Assembly (NCBI GenBank): GCA_902536925.1
Contig: CACAZL010000004.1
Span: 1-62,113 of the forward strand
DNA: 62,113 nucleotides
Source: an uncultured Pelagibacteraceae bacterium
Lineage (GTDB): Bacteria > Pseudomonadota > Alphaproteobacteria > Pelagibacterales > Pelagibacteraceae
Reading direction: 5' to 3'
Shown: one piece after another, positions 11,945 through 59,849 of the stretch
How the letters are laid out: every line of letters starts with the position of its first letter
How positions within the stretch are numbered: position 1 is the stretch's first letter
Notes under the pieces: model-generated
What the model was told of the DNA's origin: nothing
Database searches by the model: none
The model's input: the letters and a program-made list of their open reading frames with translations, nothing else
Translations under genes and position numbers: made by a program

Positions 11945-12050
11945 TTTTTTTCCTATTATAGCTTCCTTTGCCTTTTTTTGGTTTAACTATCTTTTGTTTA
12001 TATTTGCTCGAAAATAATTCTTTAGCGTGAATATTTTTTTTTTTAACCAC
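11934..12050 (-). CDS. arfA: Alternative ribosome-rescue factor ArfA (38 residues)
   Basis: A 38-residue basic protein read from a GTG at 12050, preceded in frame by a stop. It carries KPKKGKGSYNRK, matching the KNKKGKGSYMRK core of E. coli ArfA, the segment that lies in the mRNA channel of stalled ribosomes. ArfA recruits release factor 2 to ribosomes stuck on mRNAs without a stop codon, as a backup to tmRNA. It ends soon after the core motif, much like the truncated active form of the E. coli protein. It overlaps the regulator gene upstream by 8 bases and the PfkB gene by 11 bases. Too short for routine ORF calling; the motif match is strong. Confidence 0.8.
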   Translation of the reverse strand: MVKKKNIHAKELFSSKYKQKIVKPKKGKGSYNRKKTKV

Positions 12051-12603
12051 TTATCTTATATCCTTCTCTATGACTAGAAATAAAATTTTTGTCGTTAAAT
12101 TTCTTTTCTATTTTTTTTCTTAATCTGTAAATATGTGTTTCAACTGTATGTGTCTCTAATTTGGATTTATGGCCCCAAACTTCCTTTTGCAAGTCAATTA
12201 TTGACGTTGGTATTTTAAATTTATTCAAGAAGGTTATGATTTGAGCTTCCTTTTCTGTAAGCGACAATCTAACTTTATCTTTATTCATTATTCTTGAATT
12301 TAGATTAATAGAATATTTACCTATCCTTATATTATTCTGTTCATTGAATTTTTTCTTTAAAAAATTAATATTAATAATTTCAATAAGTTTTAAAACATTT
12401 ATAGGGTAATTTAATATTAGTTGATTTTCTAAATTGAAATTTTTTTCTCCAGAAATAATTAGATTATTACTATCATTTAAAATACCTTCCATTTCTTTAG
12501 CATTCAGAGATTTCAAATTAAAATTTAAAAGATATTTAATTTCATTTAATATATTAAATAAAACTTTAAAATTGTGTATTATTAATGTTTGTTGGTAAAT
12601 CAT
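12043..12603 (-). CDS. OmpR/PhoB-type winged-helix regulator with degenerate receiver domain
   Basis: 186 residues from the ATG at 12603 (MIYQQTLII); an upstream start at 12621 would overlap the divergent transpeptidase gene. The last 90 or so residues are a winged-helix DNA-binding domain (LSLTEKEAQIITFL, then ETHTVETHIYRLRKKI and a GYKI end). The first 90 have receiver-like spacing, including a late Pro (LNYPINVLKLIEII), but no acidic pair near the start and no obvious phospho-acceptor Asp. It probably works without classical phosphorylation. No histidine kinase is nearby. It reads directly into arfA. Confidence 0.75.
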   Translation of the reverse strand: MIYQQTLIIHNFKVLFNILNEIKYLLNFNLKSLNAKEMEGILNDSNNLIISGEKNFNLENQLILNYPINVLKLIEIININFLKKKFNEQNNIRIGKYSINLNSRIMNKDKVRLSLTEKEAQIITFLNKFKIPTSIIDLQKEVWGHKSKLETHTVETHIYRLRKKIEKKFNDKNFISSHREGYKISG

Positions 12604-12614
12604 AATGCTACAAT

Positions 12615-13118
12615 ATGACAATTATAATCAAAAATAAAGACACTCTTATTTATGATGAATTCAAATTTAAATGTTGTGTCGGAAAAAATGGCTTTACAAA
12701 AGATAAAATTGAAGGTGACAAAAGAACACCGACAGGAAAATTTACATTAGGTAATTTATTTTACAGAAATGATAGAAAGTTAAAACCAAAAACAAAATTA
12801 AAAATATTAAAAATTAAAAAAAATATGGGTTGGTGTAATGATGTAAAATCTAAGAGACATTACAATAAATTAATCAATGTTCACTCAAAATTTAATCATG
12901 AAAAACTATTTAGAAATGATTATAAATATGATTTTTTTATACCAATTAATTATAATTACCATAAAACTAAATTGGGTATAGGTAGTGCTATTTTTATACA
13001 TTTAACAAAAAACTACAAACCAACTGCTGGATGTATTGGGGTTTCTGAAAAAGACTTTCTGATATTAATTAAATTAATAAATAAAAATACTAAAATTAAT
13101 ATTTGTTATTCTCTTTGA
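12615..13118 (+). CDS. L,D-transpeptidase catalytic (YkuD) domain protein
   Basis: 167 residues. Conserved YkuD features: GDKRTPTGKF near residue 35, an Asn-Val-His block (LINVHSKF), and FIHLTKNYKPTAGCIGVS containing the catalytic His and Cys (S/TxGCxG type). The family forms 3-3 cross-links in peptidoglycan or attaches proteins to it. This subgroup shows no signal peptide here, so export is unclear. Its start is 11 bases from the start of the divergent winged-helix regulator, and its 3' end overlaps yggS by 13 bases. Confidence 0.82.
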   Translation: MTIIIKNKDTLIYDEFKFKCCVGKNGFTKDKIEGDKRTPTGKFTLGNLFYRNDRKLKPKTKLKILKIKKNMGWCNDVKSKRHYNKLINVHSKFNHEKLFRNDYKYDFFIPINYNYHKTKLGIGSAIFIHLTKNYKPTAGCIGVSEKDFLILIKLINKNTKINICYSL

Positions 13119-19066: not shown

Positions 19067-20040
19067 TTATTAAGAGTTTTCAATTAAATCAAACTAATAT
19101 TGAAAAATTTAACTTTTTCATGTTTTATGGACCAAACAGCGGCCTTCAAAATGAAATAATTGAAAATTTTTTTGCTAAAAGATTTGAAGAAGTTATCAAC
19201 AAATACGATGAAAATGAGATAATAAGAAACAGAGAAATTATAATATCTGAAATGATGTCTAAATCACTTTTTGATAATAAAAAAATTTACATTATTTCTA
19301 GAGTTAGTGAAAAAATTTTAAATTTTATTCTCGAAATCTTAGAGAAGAAGATAGATGGTGTTAAAATCATATTAAAAAGCAAATCCTTAGACAAGCGTTC
19401 AAAACTAAGAACTTTTTTTGAAAAAGACAAATTGTTGGTAACTATTCCAGTTTACGAAGACACTCCACAAGATCTTTCAAAAATAATTGTCAAATTTTTA
19501 AATGAAAATAAAATTAAGCTTTCGATGGAATCTATTAACTTACTAATTAGCAGAGCTAGAGGTGATAGAGATAATATTAAAAATGAACTCAATAAAATAT
19601 TAAGTTACTCATTTACAAAAAAAAGTGTCAGTTTTGAAGCGGTAAAAAAATTAAGCAATTTGAGTGAAAATTTTAGTGTTGGTGAATTGGTTGACAATTA
19701 TTTATCAAAAAAAACTAGCAGCGTTGTAAAAGTTCTTAATGAAAACAATTATACAAATGAAGATTGTATTCTTATTATTAGGACAATTTTAAATAGGTCA
19801 AAGAGACTTATGAATATTTTAGAAAAATACAATGAAAATGAAAATTTAGATGTAATTATTTCAAATGTTAAACCACCTATATTTTGGAAGGAAAAAGAGG
19901 GAGTAAAAAAACAGGCAAATTCATGGACATTAATCGAATTAAAAAATAAAATTTATGAACTTAACGAAATTGAAATGTTAATTAAAACAAACACTAATAA
20001 TTCACTAAACATATTATCAAATTTTATTGTTAATTATTAA
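19063..20040 (+). CDS. holA: DNA polymerase III subunit delta
   Basis: 325 residues. The N terminus FFMFYGPNSGLQNEII matches the start of the AAA-like domain. DNKKIYIISRVSEKI and the conserved domain-III-like helix region (TEAVKK-like, NEDCILIIRTILNRSKRL) follow. HolA opens the sliding clamp as part of the clamp loader. It comes last in the leuS-lptE-holA run, and its stop overlaps that of converging parB by 4 bases. Confidence 0.93.
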   Translation: MIIKSFQLNQTNIEKFNFFMFYGPNSGLQNEIIENFFAKRFEEVINKYDENEIIRNREIIISEMMSKSLFDNKKIYIISRVSEKILNFILEILEKKIDGVKIILKSKSLDKRSKLRTFFEKDKLLVTIPVYEDTPQDLSKIIVKFLNENKIKLSMESINLLISRARGDRDNIKNELNKILSYSFTKKSVSFEAVKKLSNLSENFSVGELVDNYLSKKTSSVVKVLNENNYTNEDCILIIRTILNRSKRLMNILEKYNENENLDVIISNVKPPIFWKEKEGVKKQANSWTLIELKNKIYELNEIEMLIKTNTNNSLNILSNFIVNY

Positions 20041-20888
20041 TAGTTGTTTTTGATTGTATTTATTAATCTATCTAATTGATCTAACCCTTTAAACTCAAAT
20101 GTTAATTTTCCTGAATTATTCTTTTTATTACTTAAATAAACTCTCATCCCAAGTTTTTCACTAAGTTGGTTTTCAACTGAAATCAAATTTGGATCTTTTA
20201 ATTTTGCGGTTTGTTTAAAACCTTTTTTTAGAATTCTTACAAGATTTTCTGTTTGTCTTACAGATAATTTTTTTTTAATTATTTTGTCGGCAATTAGAAT
20301 TGCATTTTCTAAACCGATTAATAGTTTTGCATGTCCTTGTGATATCTTATTGAGTTTTATCATTTCAATTAATTTTTCTGGTAGCGTTAATAATCGTAGA
20401 GAATTTGAAACATGTGATCTACTTTTACCTATAAACTTAGAAACACTTTCTTGATTATATCCAAAGTTTTCGATAAGATTTTTATAACTATCAGCCTCTT
20501 CTATTGCATTAAGATCTTTTCTTTGGACATTTTCAATAATTGCTAATTCAAGTGATTTAAGATTATCTGCTTCTATTATAATTACAGGGATCTCGTGAAG
20601 ACCAGCTGATTGTGCTGCTTGCCATCTCCTCTCTCCAGCAATTAACTCATACTTGTTGTCCTGACTACCAAATTTTCTAACTATCAATGGTTGTATTATT
20701 CCTCTCTCCTTGATCGAATTAGTTAATTCTTCTAAAGATTCTTTCTCAAACAATTTCCTTGGCTGATTTCTATTTGGAACAATAGAACTTATAAGAACTT
20801 TTTCATTTGAATTTTTTATATCACTATCTCCTATCAATGATGATAGACCTCTCCCTAGTCCTTTTTTGCTTTTAAAAGGATTAATCAT
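20037..20888 (-). CDS. parB: Chromosome-partitioning protein ParB
   Basis: 283 residues. N-terminal GLGRGLSSLIGD is the ParA-interacting region; the ParB/Srx nuclease-like CTP domain has NRNQPRKLFE and the GERRWQAAQ motif (GERR); a helix-turn-helix follows (NQESVSKFIGKSRSHVSNSLRLL); the C-terminal dimer domain is at the end. ParB binds parS sites and spreads as a CTP-driven clamp. Two parS-like sites lie nearby at 22361-22376 and 22693-22708. Start overlaps parA stop by 4 bases. Confidence 0.98.
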   Translation of the reverse strand: MINPFKSKKGLGRGLSSLIGDSDIKNSNEKVLISSIVPNRNQPRKLFEKESLEELTNSIKERGIIQPLIVRKFGSQDNKYELIAGERRWQAAQSAGLHEIPVIIIEADNLKSLELAIIENVQRKDLNAIEEADSYKNLIENFGYNQESVSKFIGKSRSHVSNSLRLLTLPEKLIEMIKLNKISQGHAKLLIGLENAILIADKIIKKKLSVRQTENLVRILKKGFKQTAKLKDPNLISVENQLSEKLGMRVYLSNKKNNSGKLTFEFKGLDQLDRLINTIKNNY

Positions 20889-21685
20889 GCTGCACTCTCC
20901 ACTTTATTGTCTTGATCTAAAAATTCTTCTGTAAATTTAAAATAAGCTCTACTGCCTGGACATAACTTATCATATATTAAAACCGGGATACCATGAGATG
21001 GAGCTTCTGATAGTCTGACATTTCTTGGCACAACAGCTGAATAAACTTTATCTTTAAAATAATTTCTTGCTTCCAATTCAACTTGTCCTGATAGTTTATT
21101 TCTTTTATCGAACATAGTCAGGAGTATACCCCTTATCTCTAAGGATGGATTCAAATTGGATTTTATCCTCTCGATAGTTTTCATAAGTTGAGTAAGACCT
21201 TCTAAAGCAAAAAATTCTGTCTGAAGAGGCACAACTAGTGCATCTGAAGCTACCAATGCCATAATTGTAAGTAAACTGAGTGATGGTGGGCAGTCTATAA
21301 GTATATAATCATAAGATGCTCTAGAATCATTTAAAATAGGGCTTAATTCGTCCTTTAATTTAAAAGCTCTCCGGTTATCACCAGCTGTCTCAACTTCAAG
21401 ACCAGACAAATCTACATTGGATGTAATTAAATCAAGGTTTGTAAATTTAGTTGACTGTATAACCTCTGAAATTTTCTTGTTTCCATTTAGAACATTATAA
21501 ATTGTTTTATCAGAATTTTTTGTATTTGATAATCCTAGACCTGTTGTTGCATTTCCTTGAGGATCTAGGTCGATTACTAAAATCTTTTTTCCTTTCATTG
21601 ATATTCCTGCTGCTAGATTGATGACAGTTGTAGTCTTTCCGACTCCTCCCTTCTGATTAATGACTGAAATTATTTTAATATTCAT
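20885..21685 (-). CDS. parA: Chromosome-partitioning ATPase ParA
   Basis: 266 residues. Deviant Walker A motif NQKGGVGKTTTVINLA near residue 10, DLDPQGNATTGLG, and YDILIDCPPSL-like block. ParA moves ParB-parS complexes apart after replication. It is followed by parB with a 4-base overlap and preceded by a 93-base gap after rsmG, the longest noncoding gap in this minus-strand cluster, which may hold the parAB promoter. Confidence 0.98.
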   Translation of the reverse strand: MNIKIISVINQKGGVGKTTTVINLAAGISMKGKKILVIDLDPQGNATTGLGLSNTKNSDKTIYNVLNGNKKISEVIQSTKFTNLDLITSNVDLSGLEVETAGDNRRAFKLKDELSPILNDSRASYDYILIDCPPSLSLLTIMALVASDALVVPLQTEFFALEGLTQLMKTIERIKSNLNPSLEIRGILLTMFDKRNKLSGQVELEARNYFKDKVYSAVVPRNVRLSEAPSHGIPVLIYDKLCPGSRAYFKFTEEFLDQDNKVESAA

Positions 21686-21778: not shown

Positions 21779-22423
21779 CTAGGCATTTTTTTTTCTCAAA
21801 TTTGAAATTTTTACAATCATAGACTCTTGACTAGTTAAACTCTCTTTTTTTTCATAATCAAATTTCCAGGACTTAAGTGCATTAACTAAAATATTTTTGC
21901 CACTCTTTCCTAAAAATAAAATTATGTATTTAAAATTTTTGAAGTTACTTTGAGCAATTTGAAAAATTATCGGCAAAGGCTTAAATGCGCGGGAAATTAT
22001 TACATCAGTATTTAATTTTTTTTCGTAAAAAATATTTTTTTGGCGAACTTCTGAATTTAAATTAAACTTTTTTGTCATTTCTTTTAAGAAAATACTCTTA
22101 TGGTAACTTTTTTCATAAAAAATTAGCTTAAATGCTTGTTTTTTTGGTTTCATCAAAATACCTAAAACTATACCTGGTAGGCCAGCGCCGGAGCCTAAAT
22201 CGGTACAAATTTTAATGTCTTTTTTATCAATAAATTCAATGATTTGTGCACTATCTTGAATATGCCTTTGTTTTATTGACTTTTCAGTTGTTTTACTAAT
22301 TAAGTTAATGTCTTTATTTTTTCTAATTATAGCTTTTGAATAGTCTTCAAGATCCTTTAAAGTTTCACGTGAAACATTTAAACCTATAATTTTATCAATT
22401 TTATAAATATTCGAATCAATCAA
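21779..22423 (-). CDS. rsmG: 16S rRNA (guanine527-N7)-methyltransferase RsmG (GidB)
   Basis: 214 residues. SAM-binding motif [15 protein letters not shown] (about residue 75), [15 protein letters not shown], and IISRAFKPL. Methylates G527 of 16S rRNA. The N-terminal NVSRETLKD is encoded by a parS-like sequence. It overlaps mnmG by 4 bases, the standard gidA-gidB arrangement next to parAB near the origin. Confidence 0.96.
22361..22376. other. parS-like centromere site 1 (inside rsmG)
   Basis: AGTTTCACGTGAAACA differs at one base from the bacterial parS consensus TGTTTCACGTGAAACA; the central 14 bases are a perfect palindrome. It lies in rsmG about 1.5 kb upstream of parB and about 8 kb from the proposed origin, the expected place for ParB loading. 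Confidence 0.88.
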
Positions 22424-24291
22424 GCTATATGTTTAATAGACTTTCTTTTCAGATGAGACAACAAAATATACACTGCTGCCGGAGTAATACCGTCAATTCT
22501 TAATGCTTGACCCATAGTTTTAGGTCTTATCTTCTTAAATTTAGATTTTACCTCATTAGATAGTCCTGAAAAGTTGTCATAATTGAGATTTTCAGGGATT
22601 ATTAAGTCCTCATCTCTTTTAAATGCAAGTATATCTGCTTTTTGCTTTTTTAAATATCCCTTATAATGTGAATTGATTTCCAATTGTTCATCAATTTCAC
22701 GTGAAACATAGTTTATTTGTGGCCATATTTCCCTAATTTTACTCATATTTACTGATTTTTGTCCTAATATTTGATTTGCTGATCGACTAATGCCGTCTTT
22801 TGCAATTTTAACTCCAAATTTAGCTACTTTTGAGGGTGTAATCATCAATTTATCCATTTTAAAATGTAATTTTGACAATTGACTAAATTTCTCTTTATAT
22901 ACACTCTTTCTCTCATTTAAAACTAATCCTATATCTATACCTTTTTGGGTTAACCTTACGTCTGCATTGTCTGACCTAAGAGATAGCCTGTACTCTGCCC
23001 TTGATGTAAACATTCTATAAGGTTCAGCTACACCCTTAGTAACTAAATCATCTATCATAACTCCAATATAAGCTTCTGATCGATCTAAAATAAATGGTTC
23101 TTTTTTTTTAAAAGATAATGCAGCATTTATTCCAGCTACTAATCCCTGAGCTGCTGCCTCTTCATATCCTGTAGTTCCGTTAATCTGGCCAGCAAGATAA
23201 AGATTTTTAATTTTTTTTGTCTCTAGAGTTAAAAAAAGCTCCCTAGGATCAACAAAATCATATTCAATTGCATATCCTGGTCTCAAAATTTTAACATTTT
23301 CTAAACCACTGATATTATTACATATTTCCTGCTGCAAAGATGCTGGTAATGATGTAGATATTCCATTTGGGTAAATTGTATGATCATTTAAACCTTCAGG
23401 CTCCAAAAATATTTGATGCCTCTGCTTACCTGCAAATTTTTTTATTTTATCCTCTATTGATGGACAATATCTCGGTCCCACACCTTTTATGTTCCCAAAG
23501 TACATTGCACTTTGTTTAAGATTTTTAGAAATAATTTTATGAACGTTCTCATTTGTATACGTAATACGGCATGAAATTTGTTTGTTTAAATTTTTTTTTG
23601 TAAGAAAAGAAAAAAAATATGGATCATCATCTGCATATTGCTCCTCTAAATTTTCAAAATTTATTGTACGAGCGTCGAGCCTTGGTGGAGTTCCAGTTTT
23701 TAGTCTACCTATTTTAAAATGATACTTTTCTAATTGCTCGCTTAAACCTGTTGAGGGTTTCTCATCAAATCTTCCAGCAGGTTTTTTTTTCTTACCAATG
23801 TGAATAAGACCATTTAAAAATGTGCCCGTTGTTAGAATTAACCTCGATGATTTAACAACTTTCCCAGATTGTGTTACAAATCCTATTATATCATTATTTT
23901 TAAAAGTAAACTTAATTACAGGATCTGAAAAAATGCTTAAATTACAGTAGTTTACAAGTTTTTCTTGCATAAATTTTTTATATAATGATCTGTCACTTTG
24001 TGTTCTAGGTCCTCTAACCGCTGGACCCCTACTTCTATTTAAGAGTCTAAATTGAATACCTGATTTATCTGCCACTTCTCCCATAACACCATCGAGTGCA
24101 TCTATTTCTCTTACTAAATGTCCTTTACCTAAGCCTCCAATTGCTGGATTGCAAGACATCTCTCCTATAGTATCAAATCTGTGTGTAAATAAAGCAGTGT
24201 TAACACCTAATCTTGCTGAAGCGGCTGCAGCTTCGCAACCAGCATGACCGCCACCTATTACTGCTATATCAAATTTAAGATCATTTTTCAT
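22420..24291 (-). CDS. mnmG: tRNA uridine-5-carboxymethylaminomethyl synthase subunit MnmG (GidA)
   Basis: 623 residues. FAD-binding [19 protein letters not shown] at the N terminus, [31 protein letters not shown], and [15 protein letters not shown]. With MnmE it modifies wobble uridine 34 of certain tRNAs. It carries a second parS-like site near its 3' part. The start follows mnmE by 76 bases. Confidence 0.99.
22693..22708. other. parS-like centromere site 2 (inside mnmG)
   Basis: AATTTCACGTGAAACA differs from the parS consensus at two bases at one edge and keeps the perfect TTTCACGTGAAA core. In mnmG it encodes YVSREI, close to the NVSRET encoded by site 1. Two sites about 330 bases apart are consistent with a ParB nucleation cluster. 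Confidence 0.75.
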
Positions 24292-25741: not shown

Positions 25742-26581
25742 ATGATTATTTGGTTAGCTTCTTATCCAAAAAGTGGGAATACTTGGGTTAGATCTCTTTT
25801 ATCTGCATATTATTATACCGAAGATGGTAAATTTAACTTTGATCTATTAGATAAAATAAAACAATTCCCGAGTAAGGACTTCTTAAAAAAAGAAATTAAA
25901 AGCGTCGATGAAGCTGCGGAAAATTGGCTAATAGCTCAAAGTAAAATTAAAGCAAAAAACGAAGTGCGTTTTTTAAAAACACATAATGTATTTGGATCTT
26001 ATAAAGGTAAAAATTTTACTACATCTGAATTTTCATTAGGAGCAATTTACATAGTCAGGGACCCCAGGAATGTTTTATCATCATTGATGAATCATTATTC
26101 TTTAAACGAGGACGAGGCTCTAAATATGATTAATAGTGTTTATAGAAATTTAAGGGATGAAAATAATCTTGAAGATTACTCCAACTATTCATTTATAAGT
26201 TCTTGGGCAAATAATTTCAAATCATGGAAGTTAACTAAAGATATAGAAACACTTTTTATAAAATATGAGGATTTAGAGAAAAATAGATTTAACACATTTA
26301 AAAAGATTATAAAATTTACAAATAAATTGATGAACAAAGATAGTAAAATTAATTTTAATAAATTAAAAAATTCAATAGAAAGTACTGACTTTGATATTCT
26401 AAAAAGAAAAGAGGAAACAGAGGGATTTAAAGAAGCTATTTTTTCAAAAAAAGAAGGAAAAGTGAAAAATTTTTTTAATTTAGGTACTAAAAATAACTAT
26501 AAAAAACTAATTAGATCACAAACATCAAAAACAATTAAGAAATTTTTTAAGAAAGAAATGAAAGAGCTAGGCTATATTTAG
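25742..26581 (+). CDS. Sulfotransferase-domain protein
   Basis: 279 residues. The PAPS 5'-phosphosulfate loop is [12 protein letters not shown] (residues 7-18), and the 3'-phosphate motif is [13 protein letters not shown] near residue 105. These are hallmarks of cytosolic-type sulfotransferases, which move sulfate from PAPS to an alcohol or amine. The acceptor is unknown; a lipid, sugar or small molecule is possible. It is on the opposite strand from all its neighbours in the par-mnm-rho-hem block, as if inserted between mnmE and rho. Its stop overlaps that of rho by 4 bases. Confidence 0.85.
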
Positions 26582-28342: not shown

Positions 28343-29335
28343 TTATATATTTTTTTCAATCAAATTTTTCAACAAAAGTATATGATCATCGCTGTCATTT
28401 AAGCAAGGAACCATGTCAAAATTTTCTCCACCAGACTCCATAAAACTTTCTTTACCTTGTATGAGTATTTCTTCTAATGTTTCAACACAATCAGAGGAAA
28501 AACCGGGGCATATTGCTAAGACATTTCTTTTTCCATCTTTTGGGAGTTCTTCTAAAGTTTTATCTGTGTAAGGTTGCAGCCATTCCTGAGGGCCAAATCT
28601 TGATTGAAATGTAGTTTTAATTTCAATAGAGTTTAACTTCTCATTAATTAGCCTTGTCGTTTTATGACAATAACAATGATATGGATCACCTTTATCAAAA
28701 TATTTTTTTGGAATTCCATGATAAGAAGCTAATATTAAATCTGGTTTCCAATCAATCTCGCTAATTTTTTTATTTATAGATTTTACCAATGCATCTATGT
28801 ACAAAGGATTAGATTCGTAGTGCGGTATTATTTTTAAAGAAGGCTGCCATCTCATGTTCATGAGTGTTCTATAAACCTCGTCGCAAACTGTGGCTGTGGT
28901 GGCGGCAGCATATTGGGGGTATAATGGTAAAATTACTAAATTTTCACATCCTTCTGAATGTAGTTTTTTTATTTTATTTTTAATACTTGGATTTCCGTAT
29001 CTCATTGCAAAATCTACAATTAAATTTTCATCTTTAAAATAGTTAGATGTTTTTTCCATTTGTTTTTCTGTATAATAAAGTAGTGGAGACATATTTTTGT
29101 CTTTCATCCAAATCTCTTTATATGCTTTAGCTGTTTTAGAAGGCCTAAACGTGAGAATAAAAAGGTTAAGAATTATTTGCCAAATAATCGGGTTGACTTC
29201 AATTACCCTCCTGTCGGATAAAAATTCCTTTAAATATTTTCTTATATCAAACCAACTAGTAGAATCGGGAGTTCCTAGGTTAATCAGTAACACCCCTGTT
29301 TTTCCAAATTTTACTGATGGATGTTCTTGTTTCAT
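28343..29335 (-). CDS. hemH: Ferrochelatase
   Basis: 330 residues. Inserts iron into protoporphyrin IX. VLLINLGTPDS at the N terminus, LPLYPQYAAATTATV, LASYHGIPKKYFDKGDPYHCYC with the metal-binding His, and WLQPYTDKTLEEL. Runs hemE-hemH-hemJ on the minus strand with a 4-base overlap upstream. Confidence 0.98.
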   Translation of the reverse strand: MKQEHPSVKFGKTGVLLINLGTPDSTSWFDIRKYLKEFLSDRRVIEVNPIIWQIILNLFILTFRPSKTAKAYKEIWMKDKNMSPLLYYTEKQMEKTSNYFKDENLIVDFAMRYGNPSIKNKIKKLHSEGCENLVILPLYPQYAAATTATVCDEVYRTLMNMRWQPSLKIIPHYESNPLYIDALVKSINKKISEIDWKPDLILASYHGIPKKYFDKGDPYHCYCHKTTRLINEKLNSIEIKTTFQSRFGPQEWLQPYTDKTLEELPKDGKRNVLAICPGFSSDCVETLEEILIQGKESFMESGGENFDMVPCLNDSDDHILLLKNLIEKNI

Positions 29336-30333
29336 TTAAAATTTCTCACTGTTTCTACAAGTTCATAAACCATATCAACCTCAGTTTCAGGCAAAATACC
29401 GTGACCCAAGTTAAAAACATAAGGATGGTCTTTGAATATATTCAAATACTTATTAATTTGTTTTTTCAAGTTTTCTTTATTCGATAAAAGGATCTTGGGA
29501 TCCAAACCTCCTTGTATTGGTATATCTAGTGATTTAATTAGACTTTCAGGATCAACATTATAATCAATATTTATCATACTAGGATTAACTATTTTTGTGA
29601 ATTTAACATAATCAGAAATGCCTCTAGGGAAACATATCACGGGTACACCTAAATTTTTTACATAGTTTACAAGTGATAAAGTTGGATTGTATAAAAATTT
29701 ATCAAAATCACTTTTTATTAAACCAGCCCAACTATCAAAAATTTGAATTATTGTAGCTCCAGCTTTTATTTGGTTTTCAATATGAATCTTAATAAATCTA
29801 TCTAACAAATTTAAAATTTCACTTATTAGAATTTCATCTTTAAAAAAAACATCTGGTAATCCGTTTTTAGGTGAAACTTTATTTACCATATATACTAGCA
29901 ACGTCCATGGGGCACCAACAAAGCCAATTAAATCTTTATTTTCAAGTGCTTTACTATTTTTAAGATTGGATAATAATTTATATACGGATGATAAATTATC
30001 TGTAAAATCATCCTTGGTAATGTTTTGGAGTTTGTCTAATTCTAAATCTCCTAAACTAGGACCAAAGTTTTTTTTAAATTGAACAGATTGACCTATCCCA
30101 TAGGGTATCATTAATATATCTGAAAATATTATCGCAGCATCGAAACCAAATCTCTTTATTGGCTGTAATGTTATTTCTTCAGCTAAGGTTTGATTTAAAC
30201 ATAATCTAATAAAATCTGGATTTAATTTTCTAATTTCTCTAAATTCTGGCAAATATCTTCCAGCCTGTCTCATTAACCAAATTGGATTAATTTTAGTACT
30301 CTTATTTATTAAACATTCTTTTATTGGTGTCAT
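29332..30333 (-). CDS. hemE: Uroporphyrinogen decarboxylase
   Basis: 333 residues. PIWLMRQAGRYLPEFRE is the family signature at the N terminus; FVGAPWTLLVYMV and IIQIFDSWAGLI follow; C-terminal NLGHGILPETEVD. Converts uroporphyrinogen III to coproporphyrinogen III. It is the last minus-strand gene before the probable origin, as in Caulobacter and Rickettsia, where hemE borders oriC. Confidence 0.98.
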   Translation of the reverse strand: MTPIKECLINKSTKINPIWLMRQAGRYLPEFREIRKLNPDFIRLCLNQTLAEEITLQPIKRFGFDAAIIFSDILMIPYGIGQSVQFKKNFGPSLGDLELDKLQNITKDDFTDNLSSVYKLLSNLKNSKALENKDLIGFVGAPWTLLVYMVNKVSPKNGLPDVFFKDEILISEILNLLDRFIKIHIENQIKAGATIIQIFDSWAGLIKSDFDKFLYNPTLSLVNYVKNLGVPVICFPRGISDYVKFTKIVNPSMINIDYNVDPESLIKSLDIPIQGGLDPKILLSNKENLKKQINKYLNIFKDHPYVFNLGHGILPETEVDMVYELVETVRNFK

Positions 30334-30616
30334 TTATATTAAGATAATTATATTTAGTATTTATTATTAGTATGTATTGTTGATAACGTAAATTACTCAA
30401 TTTTAACACTTTGTTAACTTTTTATACATTTTAATGTTTAAAAAACCCCCAAAAAAACAAGATTATTTAATTATTTTACAAAACTTTAAAATTGTTAATA
30501 AGATATTCACATTAATTTTTAATGTTAATTAAATGAGTATAAAAAATATTTCTTTTATAATTTTATCAAATGAGGATTATTTCTCAAATAAGACTTAATT
30601 TATAAACAATTTATAC
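30334..30616. other. Probable chromosomal replication origin (oriC)
   Basis: The longest noncoding stretch in the window (283 bases), between hemE (minus) and ppsR (plus), exactly where alphaproteobacterial origins are known. Leading-strand gene direction flips here. It is extremely AT-rich. DnaA-box-like 9-mers: TTATCAACA on the minus strand (30378-30386) and ATATTCACA (30503-30511), each one change from TTATNCACA; weaker TTATACATT (30422-30430) and TTATACATG (30611-30619). An A-C5-A run (30441-30457) stands out. Candidate by synteny plus boxes. Confidence 0.72.
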
Positions 30617-31438
30617 ATGAAAAATACACACCAAATATTCTTAATTTCAGATTCAACGGGAGAGACACTTGACAGAATTTTTATGGCTTTAAAAGCTCAA
30701 TTTAACAATTTTAATTATGAACTTAATCAATTTTCTTTTACAAGAACAGAAAGTCAAATATCTACAATTCTTAAAAATGCAAAAAAACAAGATAGTCCTA
30801 TAATATTATATACTGTAGTTAATAGTAAACTCGCCAAATATTTAGCAGAAGAAGCAAATAAAATTAGTGTACCTTGTTTTGGTGTTTTAGGAGATTTAAT
30901 TTTAAATTTCTCAAAAATTCTAAATCAAAAAGCAACTCATAAACCTAGCGGTCAGCATGTCTTAGATGAAGAATATTACAAAAGAATTGAAGCAATTCAA
31001 TTTACAATGAATCATGACGATGGTAATCAAACAGGCAATATACTTGAATCAGATATTATATTAATTGGTGTTAGTAGAACAAGTAAAACACCAACCTCTA
31101 TCTATCTCGCTAATAAAGGTTTAAAAACTGCAAACATCCCGCTAGTAAATGAAATGATGATACCAAAAGATGTTATTGAATCTAAAAACTTGTGTGTAGT
31201 TGGACTAGTAACAGAGGCTGAAAGATTATTTGATATTCGACGTAATAGACTAAATTCGCTTAAGGAGAAAGAAGCATCTGATTATACAGACCTAGAAAAA
31301 ATCAAAATTGAAGTTGAACAATCAAAAAAAATATTTAAAAAAAATAAATGGCCCACAATAGACGTAACGAGAAAATCAGTTGAGGAGACCGCTGCTTCAA
31401 TTATTAAAATATATGAAATAAAGAATAAAAATGTATAA
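30617..31438 (+). CDS. ppsR: Pyruvate,phosphate dikinase/PEP-synthase regulatory protein (PpsR, DUF299)
   Basis: 273 residues. Bifunctional ADP-dependent kinase and Pi-dependent pyrophosphorylase that turns PEP synthase or PPDK off and on. LISDSTGETLDRI at the N terminus, the P-loop GVSRTSKTPTSIYLANKG near residue 152, and VTEAERLFDIRRNRL. It is the classic first gene to the right of the alphaproteobacterial origin (the Rickettsia RP001-type position). Overlaps maf by 8 bases. Confidence 0.95.
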   Translation: MKNTHQIFLISDSTGETLDRIFMALKAQFNNFNYELNQFSFTRTESQISTILKNAKKQDSPIILYTVVNSKLAKYLAEEANKISVPCFGVLGDLILNFSKILNQKATHKPSGQHVLDEEYYKRIEAIQFTMNHDDGNQTGNILESDIILIGVSRTSKTPTSIYLANKGLKTANIPLVNEMMIPKDVIESKNLCVVGLVTEAERLFDIRRNRLNSLKEKEASDYTDLEKIKIEVEQSKKIFKKNKWPTIDVTRKSVEETAASIIKIYEIKNKNV

Positions 31439-34146: not shown

Positions 34147-34795
34147 TACAGAGACAACTGGATTATCTATAAAAGATGGTCATAGAATAGTTGAAATAGG
34201 ATGCATAGAATTAGATAATTTAATACCTACAACAAATATTTTTCATTGTTATTTAAATCCAGAAAGAAAAGTTTCGGAGACTGCTTTTAAAGTTCATGGT
34301 TATACAGATGAGTTTCTTTCCAATAAAAAAAAATTTGTAGATATCGCAGATGATTTTTTAAAATTTATTAAAGATAAAAAAATAATAATTCATAATGCTG
34401 AATTTGATATTGGTCATTTAAACAACGAACTAAGTTTATTGAATAAAACAAAAATATCAAAAGATAATATTGTGGACACACTAGAAATTGCAAGAAATAA
34501 ATATCCTGGTTCAAGTATTAGTTTAGATGCACTTTGTAAAAGGTTTAGAATAGATAATTCTAGAAGAAAAAAACATAGTGCTTTGATAGATTGTGAATTA
34601 CTTTCTAAAGTATATATAAATCTCTTAGATCAAAAAGAACCATTTTTTAAGTTTAATGAGGAAAAAGATAAAATAATGAAAAACACAAAGATTTCAAAAA
34701 GCTACTCCAAAAAAATTATTGAAATAACAGAAAATGAATTTCAAGATCATAAAAAGTTTTTAGAAAGAGAAATAAAAAAAAATTTTTTTAGTTAG
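34127..34795 (+). CDS. dnaQ: DNA polymerase III epsilon subunit (proofreading exonuclease)
   Basis: 222 residues. Exonuclease motif I VVLDTETTGLS begins at residue 4, so the chosen start is right; motif II HNAEFDIGHLN; motif III HSALIDCELLSKVY. Provides 3'-5' proofreading. It overlaps coaE by 20 bases and its 3' end overlaps secB by 8 bases. Confidence 0.97.
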   Translation: MKEVVLDTETTGLSIKDGHRIVEIGCIELDNLIPTTNIFHCYLNPERKVSETAFKVHGYTDEFLSNKKKFVDIADDFLKFIKDKKIIIHNAEFDIGHLNNELSLLNKTKISKDNIVDTLEIARNKYPGSSISLDALCKRFRIDNSRRKKHSALIDCELLSKVYINLLDQKEPFFKFNEEKDKIMKNTKISKSYSKKIIEITENEFQDHKKFLEREIKKNFFS

Positions 34796-35213
34796 TTTTT
34801 TGTTTATATAGTTCGTCAAAATTAATGTTCTTTTCTAGCCTTAATTCTGGAAATCCTGCGTCTTTTATTATTTTAATCAATATACGCTCAATTTCTGGAT
34901 AAATGGTTTTTTGAATATCACAGAGTAATATTTTCTCTAGTTCTTGTTTATCTAATTCTTTATCAATTATTTTAACAACAGTGGCATAGGAAATTTCAAA
35001 GTGCGATTTTCTTTTGTTTTCGGTTGGGTCCTTGTAAGAAACCTTAGTAATAACCTCGATCATTTTATTTTTTAAAGTTTTAGTAGTGATATTTATTCCT
35101 AGTATATATTTTGTAATATAATCTCTACTAAAAATAAAAACTTCTGCACTTGGAACTTCAACAGACAAATCTTGTATATATTTCAAAATTATTTCATATT
35201 TTTTTGTCATCAT
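34788..35213 (-). CDS. secB: Protein-export chaperone SecB
   Basis: 141 residues from ATG 35213; ATG 35210 or GTG 35219 are also possible, and a GAGG just upstream does not settle it. Family motifs: KYIQDLSVEVPSAE at the N terminus, HFEISYATVV, LCDIQKTIYPEIERIL, and DAGFPELRLEKNINF. Homotetramer that keeps exported proteins unfolded and hands them to SecA. It starts inside the end of the fxsA-like gene. Confidence 0.95.
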   Translation of the reverse strand: MMTKKYEIILKYIQDLSVEVPSAEVFIFSRDYITKYILGINITTKTLKNKMIEVITKVSYKDPTENKRKSHFEISYATVVKIIDKELDKQELEKILLCDIQKTIYPEIERILIKIIKDAGFPELRLEKNINFDELYKQKTN

Positions 35214-35619
35214 CCTCACTCAAATCTTCGAATTGACCGTCAATATAATTATTTTCTTTTGGTTTGCTGTAATTTTTTTTCTTAAAAAATTTTCCTAATA
35301 TCATTCTTCTTGTTATTGGTATTATTAATAATATTCCAATAATATCTGTTGCAAACCCAGGTAATATTAAAAGAAGTGATGCAAAAGCCAATGTTGCTCC
35401 AGACATTATTTCATAGATTGGCATTTCATTTCTGATTAGCTGACTCATTCCTGATTTTAAAGTATTAAATCCTTCATACCTTGCATAAGCAACACCTGCA
35501 ATTGCAGTAGTTAAAATGAGTAAAACAGTGTTAAATGCTCCTATTTGAGAACCGATTTTGATAAATAAATAGATTTCAAGAAGAGGAATACCAATAATTA
35601 AAATTAATACTGTGTTCAT
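35194..35619 (-). CDS. FxsA-family membrane protein
   Basis: 141 residues. Hydrophobic core with about three membrane segments: IGIPLLEIYLFIKIGSQIG, then TVLLILTTAIAGVAYARYEG, then LAFASLLLILPGFATDIIGI; charged C-terminal tail. The LxPGFxTDxxGxLL pattern is diagnostic for FxsA, whose E. coli member affects phage exclusion. Next to secB, as in other alphaproteobacteria. Confidence 0.92.
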   Translation of the reverse strand: MNTVLILIIGIPLLEIYLFIKIGSQIGAFNTVLLILTTAIAGVAYARYEGFNTLKSGMSQLIRNEMPIYEIMSGATLAFASLLLILPGFATDIIGILLIIPITRRMILGKFFKKKNYSKPKENNYIDGQFEDLSEDDDKKI

Positions 35620-36264: not shown

Positions 36265-36674
36265 CAAATAAGCTATCAGATAAAGATAAAAAAGATTGGC
36301 AAAAATTCCTAAGTAGTTCCGAAAAACTTCAGAACAAAGATGTGGATGAAGTAAATTATCAAAAAGCTTCTGAAAGATCAATCGATCTTCATGGATATAC
36401 TTTAGAAGAAGCTAACAAAAAAATTTCAGAATTTATTGAAAATTGTTATGCAAATAAAATTATAAAAATTAATGTTATAACTGGTAAGGGAATGAGATCT
36501 AAAAATTTAGATGATCCTTATCAATCTAAAGATTTAAGTATTTTAAAGTATTCAGTGCCAGAATATATTAAGAATAATCCTGAGTTAATGAGTAAAATTA
36601 TAAGAATTGATTTAGATTCAGTTCTTAGTCCTTCGAAAGGAAATTTTGATATACATTTGAAAACTATAAAATAA
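36261..36674 (+). CDS. Smr (MutS2 C-terminal-like) domain endonuclease-family protein
   Basis: 137 residues from a TTG at 36261 overlapping the previous stop (TTGA). A short basic/acidic N terminus precedes the Smr domain: [16 protein letters not shown] with the LDxHG-type motif, and [13 protein letters not shown] with the TGxG motif. Smr proteins nick branched or structured nucleic acids. The 3' end overlaps hslU by 11 bases. Confidence 0.88.
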
Positions 36675-38031
36675 ATTTTGAAAGATCAGTATCTTTTACC
36701 AATTCACCAATATTTTCTTTAATATATTTACCATCGACAGTAATTTTTTCTCCAGCTCTATCCGTTGCTGTAAAACTAATTTCATCTAATACCCTCTCAA
36801 TTATTGTATGTAACCTTCTTGCTCCAATATTTTCGACTGATGAATTTACTTCACTCGCTATATGCGCAATTGTATTAATCCCGTCTTCTGTAAAATCTAA
36901 ATCTACGTTTTCAGTTTTTAAAAGTGCTTTGTACTGTTTAATTAAACTATTATCAGGCTCTTTTAATATTCTAATGAAATCCTCACTATTTAGTGCATCA
37001 AGCTCAACTCTTATAGGTAATCTTCCTTGTAATTCTGGCAAAAGATCAGATGGCTTTGCTAATTGAAAAGCACCAGAAGCAATAAATAAAATGTGGTCAG
37101 TCTTAACAGGTCCATATTTTGTACTTACAGTTGTACCTTCTATCAATGGTAATAGATCTCTTTGAACACCCTCTCTCGATACATCACCACCGACACGGTC
37201 TGTTCTTGCTGAAATTTTATCAATTTCATCCAAGAAAACTATTCCATTATTCTCTGTTGAATCTTTTGCTGACTTAATAATTTTGTCTTGTTCAATAAGT
37301 TTGTCAGATTCCTCGTTTATTAAAATTTCATGTGATTCTTTAACTGACATTTTCTTTTTTTTAGGCTTTTGACCCATAGATTTTCCAAGCATGTCAGAAA
37401 TATTAATCATTCCAACGTTTGCACCTGGCATTCCAGGTATTTCAAATGATGGCATTTGATTAGACTCGCTAATAGCTATTTCAATTTCATTATCATCTAA
37501 ATCTCCATCTCTTAGTCTTTTTCTAAAACTTTCTCTTGTTGCAACACTAGCTTTATTTCCTACCAACGCATCTAATACTCTGTCTTCAGCCAATTTTTGT
37601 GCTTGAGCATGAACTTCTTTTCTTTTCTTTACTTTTTCCATCGCAATTGCAATTTCTAATAAATCTCTTACAATTTGCTCTACATCACGTCCCACATACC
37701 CCACTTCTGTAAATCTTGTAGCTTCAACTTTTACAAATGGTGCTTCAGCTAATTTTGAAAGTCTTCTAGATATTTCAGTTTTACCAACACCAGTTGGTCC
37801 GATCATTAGAATGTTTTTTGGAAGAACTTCATCTTTCATATCGTCTTCTAATGCTTGTCTCCTCCATCTATTTCTTAAAGCGATAGCAACAGCTCTTTTA
37901 GCTTTGTTTTGCCCAACAACAAATCTATCTAATTCAGATACGATTTCTCTAGGTGATAATGAATTTGCAATTGTTGTTTTTTCTTTATCTATTTTTCCTT
38001 TAGGAAAGGTTGTTATGTTTGATTTTTCCAT
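36664..38031 (-). CDS. hslU: ATP-dependent protease ATPase subunit HslU (ClpY)
   Basis: 455 residues. AAA+ unfoldase: [24 protein letters not shown] at the start (shown in part), Walker [31 protein letters not shown] pore region, Walker [13 protein letters not shown], and sensor/C-terminal [15 protein letters not shown]. Feeds substrates to HslV. The start overlaps the hslV stop by one base. Confidence 0.99.
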
Positions 38032-38546
38032 TATATTTTTTCCATACTCAAATTACCATTAGTAAATACGCATATGTCAGATGCAACTTTAATTGATTTT
38101 TTTGCAATTTCTTCAGCAGACATGTCAGTATCCATTAATACTTTTGCTGCAGCTAAAGCATAGTTTCCTCCAGACCCAATACCAATAACATCGCCTTCAG
38201 GTTCTAAGACATCTCCAGTTCCAGAAATTATAAAGCTTTTTTCTTTGTCACCAATTGCCATTAAGGCTTCTAATCTTCTTAAATATTTATCAGTTCGCCA
38301 GTCTTTGGCTAGTTCAACAGCAGCTCTTGTTAAGTTACCCGCATGTTTTTCTAGCTTAGATTCTAATCTTTCAAATAATGTTAAAGCATCAGCAGTAGAT
38401 CCTGCAAATCCTGCTATCACATTTCTTTTCTCAATTTTACGAACTTTGTTAGCAGTTTTCTTAATTACAGTGTTACCCATACTAACTTGGCCATCACTGG
38501 CCACAACTACGTCATTATTTTTTCTTACAAGCACAATTGTTGTCAT
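38031..38546 (-). CDS. hslV: ATP-dependent protease proteolytic subunit HslV (ClpQ)
   Basis: 171 residues. After Met removal the N-terminal Thr2 (MTTIVLVRK) is the catalytic nucleophile; [29 protein letters not shown] and [11 protein letters not shown] are family motifs. Forms a two-ring peptidase with HslU. The promoter appears to be a heat-shock type that ends only six bases before the ATG, so the mRNA may be leaderless. Confidence 0.98.
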
Positions 38547-46574: not shown

Positions 46575-47120
46575 ATGAAACGAAATGGTTTCACATTAAT
46601 CGAACTTTTAGTTGTAGTAGCAATAATTGGTATTTTGGCAGCAGTAGGAGTTGTTGCATACAGCGGCTATACAAAAGGGGCAAAGCAAAATGTATTAAAA
46701 TCAAATTTTGCAAATATTGAAAAAAAAATCAAATTAGCAGCAACAGGTTGTTTTAGTGGAATTGAAATAAAATTTGGCCCATATCAAGATGGCAGATCAC
46801 CAAATACTCATACATGTAATACACCCGGCTTTTCTAGTAATATGTTAAGCGCTGACTCAATTACATTTAAATTGTACTTAGAAAATTTTGGTATGAAAAA
46901 CCCTATTAACAGCTCTCAACTTGGAATAAATTGGAGTAATGGAACTTGTCCACCACAGAATGTTGCTCAAGGTCAAATAGTTATGGGATATGCCCACAAA
47001 AATAATACATGCGGAATGGCTGGTAATATGTCTTGCCTTAAAGTAAATTTAGGTGATATCGACGGAAATGGATCAGATGATTTTATATCTGAAGAAATTA
47101 ATTTTTGTGATTTTAGATAA
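46575..47120 (+). CDS. Type IV pilin/pseudopilin with cysteine-rich globular domain
   Basis: 181 residues. Prepilin signal MKRNG|FTLIE with the Glu at +5 and a hydrophobic helix (LLVVVAIIGILAAVGVVAY). The globular domain has six cysteines (59, 81, 125, 146, 154, 178), enough for three disulfides, and an EF-hand-like loop DIDGNGSDDF at residues 161-170. Could be the major pilin of a DNA-uptake or adhesion pilus. No other pilus genes are in the window. Confidence 0.88.
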   Translation: MKRNGFTLIELLVVVAIIGILAAVGVVAYSGYTKGAKQNVLKSNFANIEKKIKLAATGCFSGIEIKFGPYQDGRSPNTHTCNTPGFSSNMLSADSITFKLYLENFGMKNPINSSQLGINWSNGTCPPQNVAQGQIVMGYAHKNNTCGMAGNMSCLKVNLGDIDGNGSDDFISEEINFCDFR

Positions 47121-59481: not shown

Positions 59482-59738
59482 TAATCATCCTCCTTTTCGG
59501 TAAAACCAAACTCTTCATCGATTTTTTCCTGTCTATTTGCAAACCAAAAAATTAGGACCACAAATGCAATGATGGAACCTTGCGCACACATGTAGTACGC
59601 TAATGGATATCCCATAAAACTTGAAGTGTTTAGGTCAGAACCAAACATGAAGATCAGATAACCGAAAACAAACCAAATAATTAATGTAATTATCATTAAT
59701 CCTTTGGTTTTTTCCCAGTGCTTTTCTTTGTTTGACAT
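59481..59738 (-). CDS. Sodium/solute symporter small subunit (DUF4212)
   Basis: 85 residues with two membrane helices (MIITLIIWFVFGYLIFMFG and AYYMCAQGSIIAFVVLIFW) and the family's HWEKTKGL start and FGFTEKEDD end. Always found beside the large subunit. A strong GGGAGG ribosome-binding site precedes it, rare among genes here, suggesting high expression. Confidence 0.93.
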   Translation of the reverse strand: MSNKEKHWEKTKGLMIITLIIWFVFGYLIFMFGSDLNTSSFMGYPLAYYMCAQGSIIAFVVLIFWFANRQEKIDEEFGFTEKEDD

Positions 59739-59849
59739 TATTTTAATCCTCCCTATAGGTTAAAGATATAATTCATACTCATTTAATGTGATAATTAAAG
59801 GGTAAAAAATGGCATATATTTATAGCAAAAGTAGTAATATCGGTTCTAA
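59739..59849. promoter_or_regulatory. Divergent intergenic region upstream of the symporter operon
   Basis: 111 bases. On the minus strand it holds the GGGAGG ribosome-binding site of the symporter small subunit just above the start codon, and an AT-rich stretch that must contain its promoter. On the plus strand it precedes the 209-residue unknown gene. I could not pick out a convincing -35/-10 pair. Confidence 0.4.

Follow-up and report, generated by a model that had tools for sequence, protein, structure and literature searches.

The 283-bp intergenic region between hemE and ppsR, at 30334-30616 of the window (the whole stretch of 62,113 nucleotides analyzed here), is very probably the chromosomal oriC of a SAR11 cell, of the hemE/COG1806 kind. 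Near relatives of its genome are classified as Pelagibacteraceae (SAR11). A probable oriC at this site had been proposed in a first-pass annotation, and the proposal is supported by the flanking genes, the DnaA boxes, the parS-like sites and the GC skew of relatives. From sequence comparison we infer that DnaA binds, that the duplex opens and that replication starts at this gap. The predicted origin belongs to a type that related bacteria are known to have, is shorter than in the relatives compared and has relaxed boxes. Its features and those of its surroundings are given in Table 1.

Table 1. Features of the putative origin and of its neighborhood (positions in the window)
Feature	Position	Strand	Remarks
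Putative oriC, whole hemE/ppsR intergenic region	30334..30616	.	Conserved divergent pair, box enrichment, three-box cluster
hemE	29332..30333	-	Left flank, start at 30333; TIGR01464 match just under cut-off
ppsR / COG1806	30617..31438	+	Right flank, start at 30617; PRK05339 match over cut-off
DnaA-trio-like element TAC-TAA-TAA-TAA	30361..30372	-	5 nt 3' of box 1; proposed unwinding site
DnaA box 1 TTATCAACA	30378..30386	-	hemE-proximal, exact TTATNMACA, followed by the trios
Weak box TTTTAAACA	30435..30443	-	One mismatch to TTATNMACA
DnaA box TTATTAACA	30493..30501	-	Exact TTATNMACA
Weak DnaA box ATATTCACA	30503..30511	+	Within one base of TTATNCACA
Weak box TAATTAACA	30523..30531	-	One mismatch to TTATNMACA
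Weak box TTATACTCA	30534..30542	-	One mismatch
DnaA box TTATAAACA	30600..30608	+	Exact TTATNMACA; register -17 from ppsR start
parB	20037..20888	-	Segregation gene near the putative origin
parA	20885..21685	-	Named from ParA-like family matches, none over cut-off
parS-like site AGTTTCACGTGAAACA	22361..22376	.	One mismatch; inside rsmG frame
Second parS-like site	22693..22708	.	Two mismatches; inside mnmG frame

By base count the gap has 15.2% G+C, against 23-36% in 2-kb windows, so that its A+T content is above average. As had been noticed, it is the longest noncoding stretch of the window, whether ORFs of at least 60 or of at least 80 amino acids are considered; if only ORFs of at least 100 amino acids are masked, positions 59482-59849 exceed it, but they contain an 85-aa ORF. 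The switch of coding strand described for this place is also present: to the left, genes are on the minus strand back to parB, with ORF 25742-26581 as the single exception, and to the right they are mostly on the plus strand, with minus blocks at 34788-35619, at 36664-38546 and from 43680. The C5 run that had been singled out does exist at 30446-30450, but it is not conserved in an alignment of 30 gaps and thus is not a conserved element. A plasmid search with the hemE-ppsR region gave no match, and a second match of the gap in its own genome (G000:C1:99711-99764, 77%, query 135-195) was taken as an A+T-rich chance match. Elsewhere in the window, the ORF at 46575-47120 (+) has an N-terminus (MKRNGFTLIELLVVVAIIGILAAVG) that, judged by eye, is type IV pilin-like.

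Divergent hemE adjoins ppsR in all 30 loci of a first set, and the pair was found in 116 of the 120 loci of a larger one; in two of the four exceptions (L035 and L093) there is no hemE match inside the locus, and in the other two (L121 from G067 and L122 from G066) hemE is located elsewhere. The ppsR gene is present in 31 of 61 genomes, comprising 31 of the 37 from the same family (its own genome included) and none of the 24 from the sister family f2, which suggests that this regulator was lost in the latter (no match, 24/24). In SAR11, the gap between divergent hemE and ppsR measures 255-286 bp in 61 of 63 loci, and these 61 gaps, all distinct, form the set used for the statistics given below. 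In other alphaproteobacteria the two genes are divergent in 25 of 28 loci (obtained from 76 other genomes with ppsR, among 114 searched in the class, including two SAR11 already seen), with gaps of 327-899 bp. The idea of a reduced origin, put forward in the first-pass annotation, thus holds as far as length is concerned.

It had also been noted that the Caulobacter and Rickettsia origins lie beside hemE, and the same gene pair does enclose both (PMC1914354). Cori of Caulobacter crescentus, as described there, resembles the region studied here in its divergent flanks, its A+T-rich gap and its several DnaA boxes, and is 404 bp long compared with 283 bp in the window. The hemE/COG1806 origins of Rickettsia have the same flanks and about 82% A+T, and the lengths given for them, 383-396 bp (PMC1914354), are above the 255-286 bp of SAR11.

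DnaA boxes were searched with the consensus TTATNMACA, which covers the TTATNAACA and TTATNCACA forms. The 61 SAR11 gaps contain 168 of them against 10.8 in shuffles, an enrichment of about 15-fold, although shuffle comparisons overstate independence because related sequences share ancestry. TTATNAACA contributes 135 copies in 60 gaps (shuffle mean 8.8, maximum 16) and TTATNCACA 33 copies in 28 gaps (shuffle mean 2.0, maximum 7); the gap of L309, one of the 61, has no exact box. The control TTATNTACA was not enriched (6 versus 8.5 in shuffles), and the reversed and the complement motifs each gave 5 matches versus 10.8. Comparison of the gap across SAR11 genomes, which had been suggested as a check, therefore favors the origin, since at least one TTATNAACA is found in 60 of 61 distinct gaps, many in shared registers. 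Counted from ppsR, exact boxes fall at -17/-14 in 35 of the 61 gaps, at -112 in 22, at -93 in 20, at -197 in 19, at -134 to -141 in 17, at -208 in 11 and at -220 in 5. In a plain count of pairs, boxes with at most one mismatch on the same strand are most often spaced by 11 bp (35 pairs), and next by 22 bp (21 pairs).

In the window's own gap there are three exact TTATNMACA, a number that was reached in 0.15% of 2000 shuffles of this gap and at no other place of the window within 283 bp. The annotation had counted two 9-mers one base from TTATNCACA, but there are five (30378-, 30493-, 30503+, 30534- and 30600+). Over the whole window such 9-mers, at one base or less from TTATNCACA, are fewer than in shuffles (75 versus 105.7), so that five in 283 bp represent a local cluster. 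At the place of box 1, 43 of the 61 gaps have a box with no more than one mismatch and 26 have an exact one, and at the place of the weak box at about 30503-30511 the close relatives L004, L006 and L007 have an exact TTATGCACA or TTATTCACA. Among five complete genomes, which were sampled, the gap is the only three-box cluster in G012 and G133 and one of two such places in G067 (the other at 841 kb); the gap has fewer than three boxes in G075 and G085, the former with a three-box cluster at 285 kb.

The remark that perfect boxes are scarce is right in that exact TTATNCACA is absent from the window's gap, but the relaxed form is a variant of the whole lineage and not a local feature. With 135 TTATNAACA and 33 TTATNCACA in the lineage, the scarcity does not reflect the decay of a single origin. 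In 25 gaps of other alphaproteobacteria, mostly at higher G+C, we counted 12 TTATNCACA versus 2 TTATNAACA. We considered and rejected the possibility that DnaA has come to prefer A over C at position 6 of the box, as both forms are about equally enriched (15 and 16 times), which looks like tolerance combined with base composition.

The hemE-proximal box is followed by a putative DnaA-trio element. The definition of such an element (a box, a spacer of 0-16 nt and at least three NAN) applies to the window; however, NAN is easily found in A+T-rich DNA, and TAN was used as a stricter test. The window has a single place where four TAN follow a box with one mismatch or none (box at 30378, trios 30372-30361). 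In the 43 gaps with a minus-strand box at the hemE end, A is found at positions 7, 10, 13 and 16 after the box in 88-95%, preceded by T in 60-79%. Where this box is exact (27 gaps, in which the downstream sequence takes 24 different forms), TAN accounts for 3.17 of the 4 trinucleotides at offset 5, whereas 2000 shuffles never gave more than 1.29 of 4 for the best of 12 offsets. The phase is missing from 74 plus-strand boxes (at most 0.76 of 4), the test covering boxes with enough downstream sequence and ppsR-side boxes falling at the end of the gap. A weaker phase was seen after 31 other minus-strand boxes, with 1.39 of 4 at offset 1 and 0.52 at offset 5.

Under this strict rule (four TAN behind a box with no more than one mismatch), 19 of the 61 SAR11 gaps qualify, against 0.64 expected from shuffles, and none of 25 other alphaproteobacterial gaps does. 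The gaps of G133, G012 and G085 do not satisfy it, although all come close: in the first two, three of the four trinucleotides are TAN, and in that of G085 all four are, but the box before them has two mismatches. The 1.32 Mb of sequence sampled across these three genomes contain a single match to the rule, at 917416 of G133, outside the gap. The element resembles the basal unwinding system as outlined in PMC8287927 in its box, its 5-nt spacer (within the limit of 0-16) and its three or more trinucleotides with a middle A; it differs in that SAR11 trios are mostly 5'-TA[A/C], while the most frequent one given for that system is 5'-TAG (3'-GAT-5').

Many bacterial origins adjoin dnaA, and it could be supposed that the SAR11 origin does so too, the hemE/ppsR gap being merely a conserved divergent promoter region; we consider this improbable. 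In Caulobacter dnaA is close to the origin, whereas in SAR11 it lies 60-72 kb from ppsR, a distance found in 11 of 11 complete genomes and equal to about 5% of the chromosome. The window's own genome has its dnaA on another contig (G000:C13:9777-10988), cut by the contig end at 10990. An origin beside dnaA would be in line with the position of this gene, also close to the skew minimum at genome scale, and with one paper in which SAR11 whole-genome alignments were started at DnaA (PMC12421898). On a finer scale, the cumulative skew is higher at dnaA than at ppsR in G133 (0.065 versus 0.012 of the amplitude) and in G085 (0.103 versus 0.006), and dnaA is also above ppsR in G012, G067 and, slightly, G075. 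Moreover, there is no three-box cluster near dnaA in the samples of G012, G075, G067 and G133, and a parS-like site adjoins hemE/ppsR. A skew minimum together with a box cluster at dnaA, as expected of an origin adjacent to it, was not found in the relatives.

These skew values come from relatives because the source genome is fragmentary (796 kb in 26 contigs, 63% complete, the window being one contig); cumulative GC skew was computed from 30-39% samples of five complete genomes. Its minimum, which the annotation had proposed as a check of the origin, is at or near ppsR in four of the five, and G075 is ambiguous. In G085 the minimum coincides with ppsR. In G133 it is 25 kb from ppsR, which stands at 1.2% of the amplitude, and in G067 the distance is 19 kb. 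In G012 the minimum is flat over about 100 kb; ppsR lies within this plateau, whose lowest point is 28 kb from the gene. G075 shows near-equal minima at 360 kb (slightly lower) and at 605-635 kb, of which only the second is near the gap. The window's own skew has a local minimum at about 30 kb that is not the global minimum of the window.

Raw GC skew closely tracks gene direction, and we rejected it as stand-alone evidence of replication. Correction for gene direction was done at third codon positions. The corrected skew changes sign at ppsR in G133 and G067. In G133 it is negative in 9 of 9 stretches of the arc that runs from 1040 kb past the zero point to 320 kb, and positive in 7 of 10 at 325-995 kb; in G067 it is positive in 11 of 11 stretches at 141-740 kb, and in the rest of the genome 6 of 8 are zero or negative. 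The order is weak in G012 (7/11 positive, 6/8 negative) and in G085 (4/7 positive plus one zero, 5/8 negative), and there is none in G075 (5/11 positive, 4/9 negative); at fourfold sites no clear order was seen. The counts exclude stretches whose genes all lie on one strand (four in G085 and one each in G133, G067 and G012) and also the G085 stretch spanning the gap. One boundary between the two sides was set at ppsR and the other at the maximum of the sampled skew, which makes the terminus boundary a fitted one. As the raw skew tracks gene direction and the corrected skew is mixed, we take the skew as moderate support for the hemE/ppsR origin.

In 12 of 12 genomes we found a parS-like site with no more than one mismatch, at 7.4-19.5 kb from ppsR in 11 complete genomes and at 8.3 kb in the window; none was found elsewhere at this stringency. 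When two mismatches are allowed, scattered extra sites appear in 6 of 12 genomes and the reversed control pattern matches in 3 of 12. For the window alone the signal is weakly beyond chance, the two matches with at most three mismatches being equalled by 9 of 100 shuffles. In G064, G066, G067 and G068, from other genera, the parS-like site is on the ppsR side and not on the hemE side.

Still less probable is that the gap is a divergent promoter or regulatory region where no replication starts and where transcription is controlled by DnaA or by a response regulator: such a gap must contain two promoters, and in fact 30200-30750 has 11 promoter-like matches versus 5.3 in shuffles and TTAA-N7-TTAA is enriched, but the boxes persist after replacement of either flank, no promoter role is known for the trio element and there is no CtrA among the response regulators scanned.

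The replacement of hemE is seen in G066 and G067, where this gene was relocated and boxes are still found upstream of ppsR. In G067 the arrangement is rho, gap and ppsR (rho named by eye from the rho of the window), and hemE is now near the skew maximum while the minimum remains near ppsR. The replacement of ppsR is seen in the sister family: five of its 24 genomes, all of them lacking a ppsR match, have hemE opposite a frame that looks maf-like by eye, with 265-280 bp between the two. Boxes lie wholly inside three of these five gaps (1, 2 and 3 boxes), in total 6 versus 0.46 in 500 shuffles (maximum 3), and in L133 and L136 the sole box overlaps with the start of maf. A gap with boxes therefore survives the loss of either neighbor, which would be unexpected for a mere hemE or ppsR promoter. 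The ORF adjoining relocated hemE in G067 and G066 (L137, L138) resembles hemB by eye. In L131 and L139 (G068:C1:358206-359185) the hemE beside the predicted origin is apparently broken, with a match in two pieces, one of them with two in-frame stops.

The TTAA-N7-TTAA motif, examined as a candidate CtrA site, occurs 80 times in the 61 gaps versus 32.5 in shuffles (maximum 58), and the spacing controls N6 and N8 occur 50 and 32 times. This enrichment could be a by-product of DnaA boxes phased at 11 bp, an explanation only partly supported by the overlap with boxes, which is 7/40 at no more than one mismatch and 20/40 at two. GANTC is found 6 times in the 61 gaps versus 18.9 in shuffles, in only 3 gaps, compared with the several sites present in Caulobacter Cori (PMC3973325). 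We do not claim avoidance by selection, given that the control GTNAC is likewise depleted (16 versus 71.8).

CtrA sites characterize Caulobacter, but some relatives lack them. Cori also has five CtrA sites according to PMC1914354, and no CtrA was found among the OmpR-type regulators scanned in SAR11, which reached at most 143.6 bits against a cut-off of 350 for the CtrA model. The scan comprised three of the four OmpR-type hits of G133 and the window's apparent copy of the fourth, a fifth hit, in G064, lying outside it; one of the scanned proteins is PhoB, over the model cut-off. As the CtrA model is named for Rhodobacterales, the absence of CtrA is likely rather than proven. The window encodes at 12043-12621 (-) a protein carrying a DNA-binding domain of response regulators (PF00486); its better family matches cover the C-terminal part only, and its receiver is apparently degenerate. 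In the other six genomes searched, similar but weaker hits are located at 18-28 kb from ppsR. GcrA matches were obtained in 79 of 84 family genomes with a model that is imperfectly specific (a control match in Sulfolobus), and N6/N4 methylase matches in 12 of 12 genomes, that of G012 reaching 579.7 bits with the CcrM model, whose cut-off is 830. A CcrM homolog in SAR11 is mentioned in PMC3973325.

If the gap works as the origin, DnaA would bind the array of 9-bp TTATNMACA boxes and would spread from the box at 30378-30386 (-) onto the trinucleotide run 30372-30361, opening the duplex there. The helicase would then be loaded and two forks would leave, one through hemE and parAB and the other through ppsR and maf, while ParB bound to the nearby parS sites would move the new origins apart. 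A broader reading, possible but rather doubtful, is that the SAR11 origin is stripped-down: about 280 bp, with TTATNMACA boxes on an 11-bp phase, TA[A/C] trios at the hemE end, no CtrA control although a CcrM-like methylase and GcrA are retained, and dnaA separated from the origin by about 60 kb. Initiation would in that case be governed solely by the supply of DnaA, with a possible link to the weak cell-cycle regulation of SAR11.

SAR11 is one of the most abundant cell types of the ocean, and estimates of its growth in situ from metagenome coverage depend on a known origin position. DoriC probably includes a predicted entry for HTCC1062, and the word Pelagibacter is absent from the text of the DoriC 2018 paper. 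SAR11 coverage in metagenomes was described as V-shaped with a single origin (PMC9589681), and a figure legend states that the HTCC1062 oriC was manually identified (PMC4033161); the titles, abstract beginnings and passages retrieved from the literature did not give the sequence or site of a SAR11 origin. The growth estimator GRiD anchors fragments at dnaA (PMC7852909). Our comparison places the putative SAR11 origin 60-72 kb from dnaA, where both GRiD and the alignments of PMC12421898 are anchored. Moreover, the map of boxes and trios offers concrete test sites for initiation in a streamlined alphaproteobacterium without evident CtrA. As for DnaA itself, its recognition region reads NRDHTT...IHS in 5 of 5 genomes of the window's genus and GRDHTT...IHA in 3 of 3 genomes of other genera.
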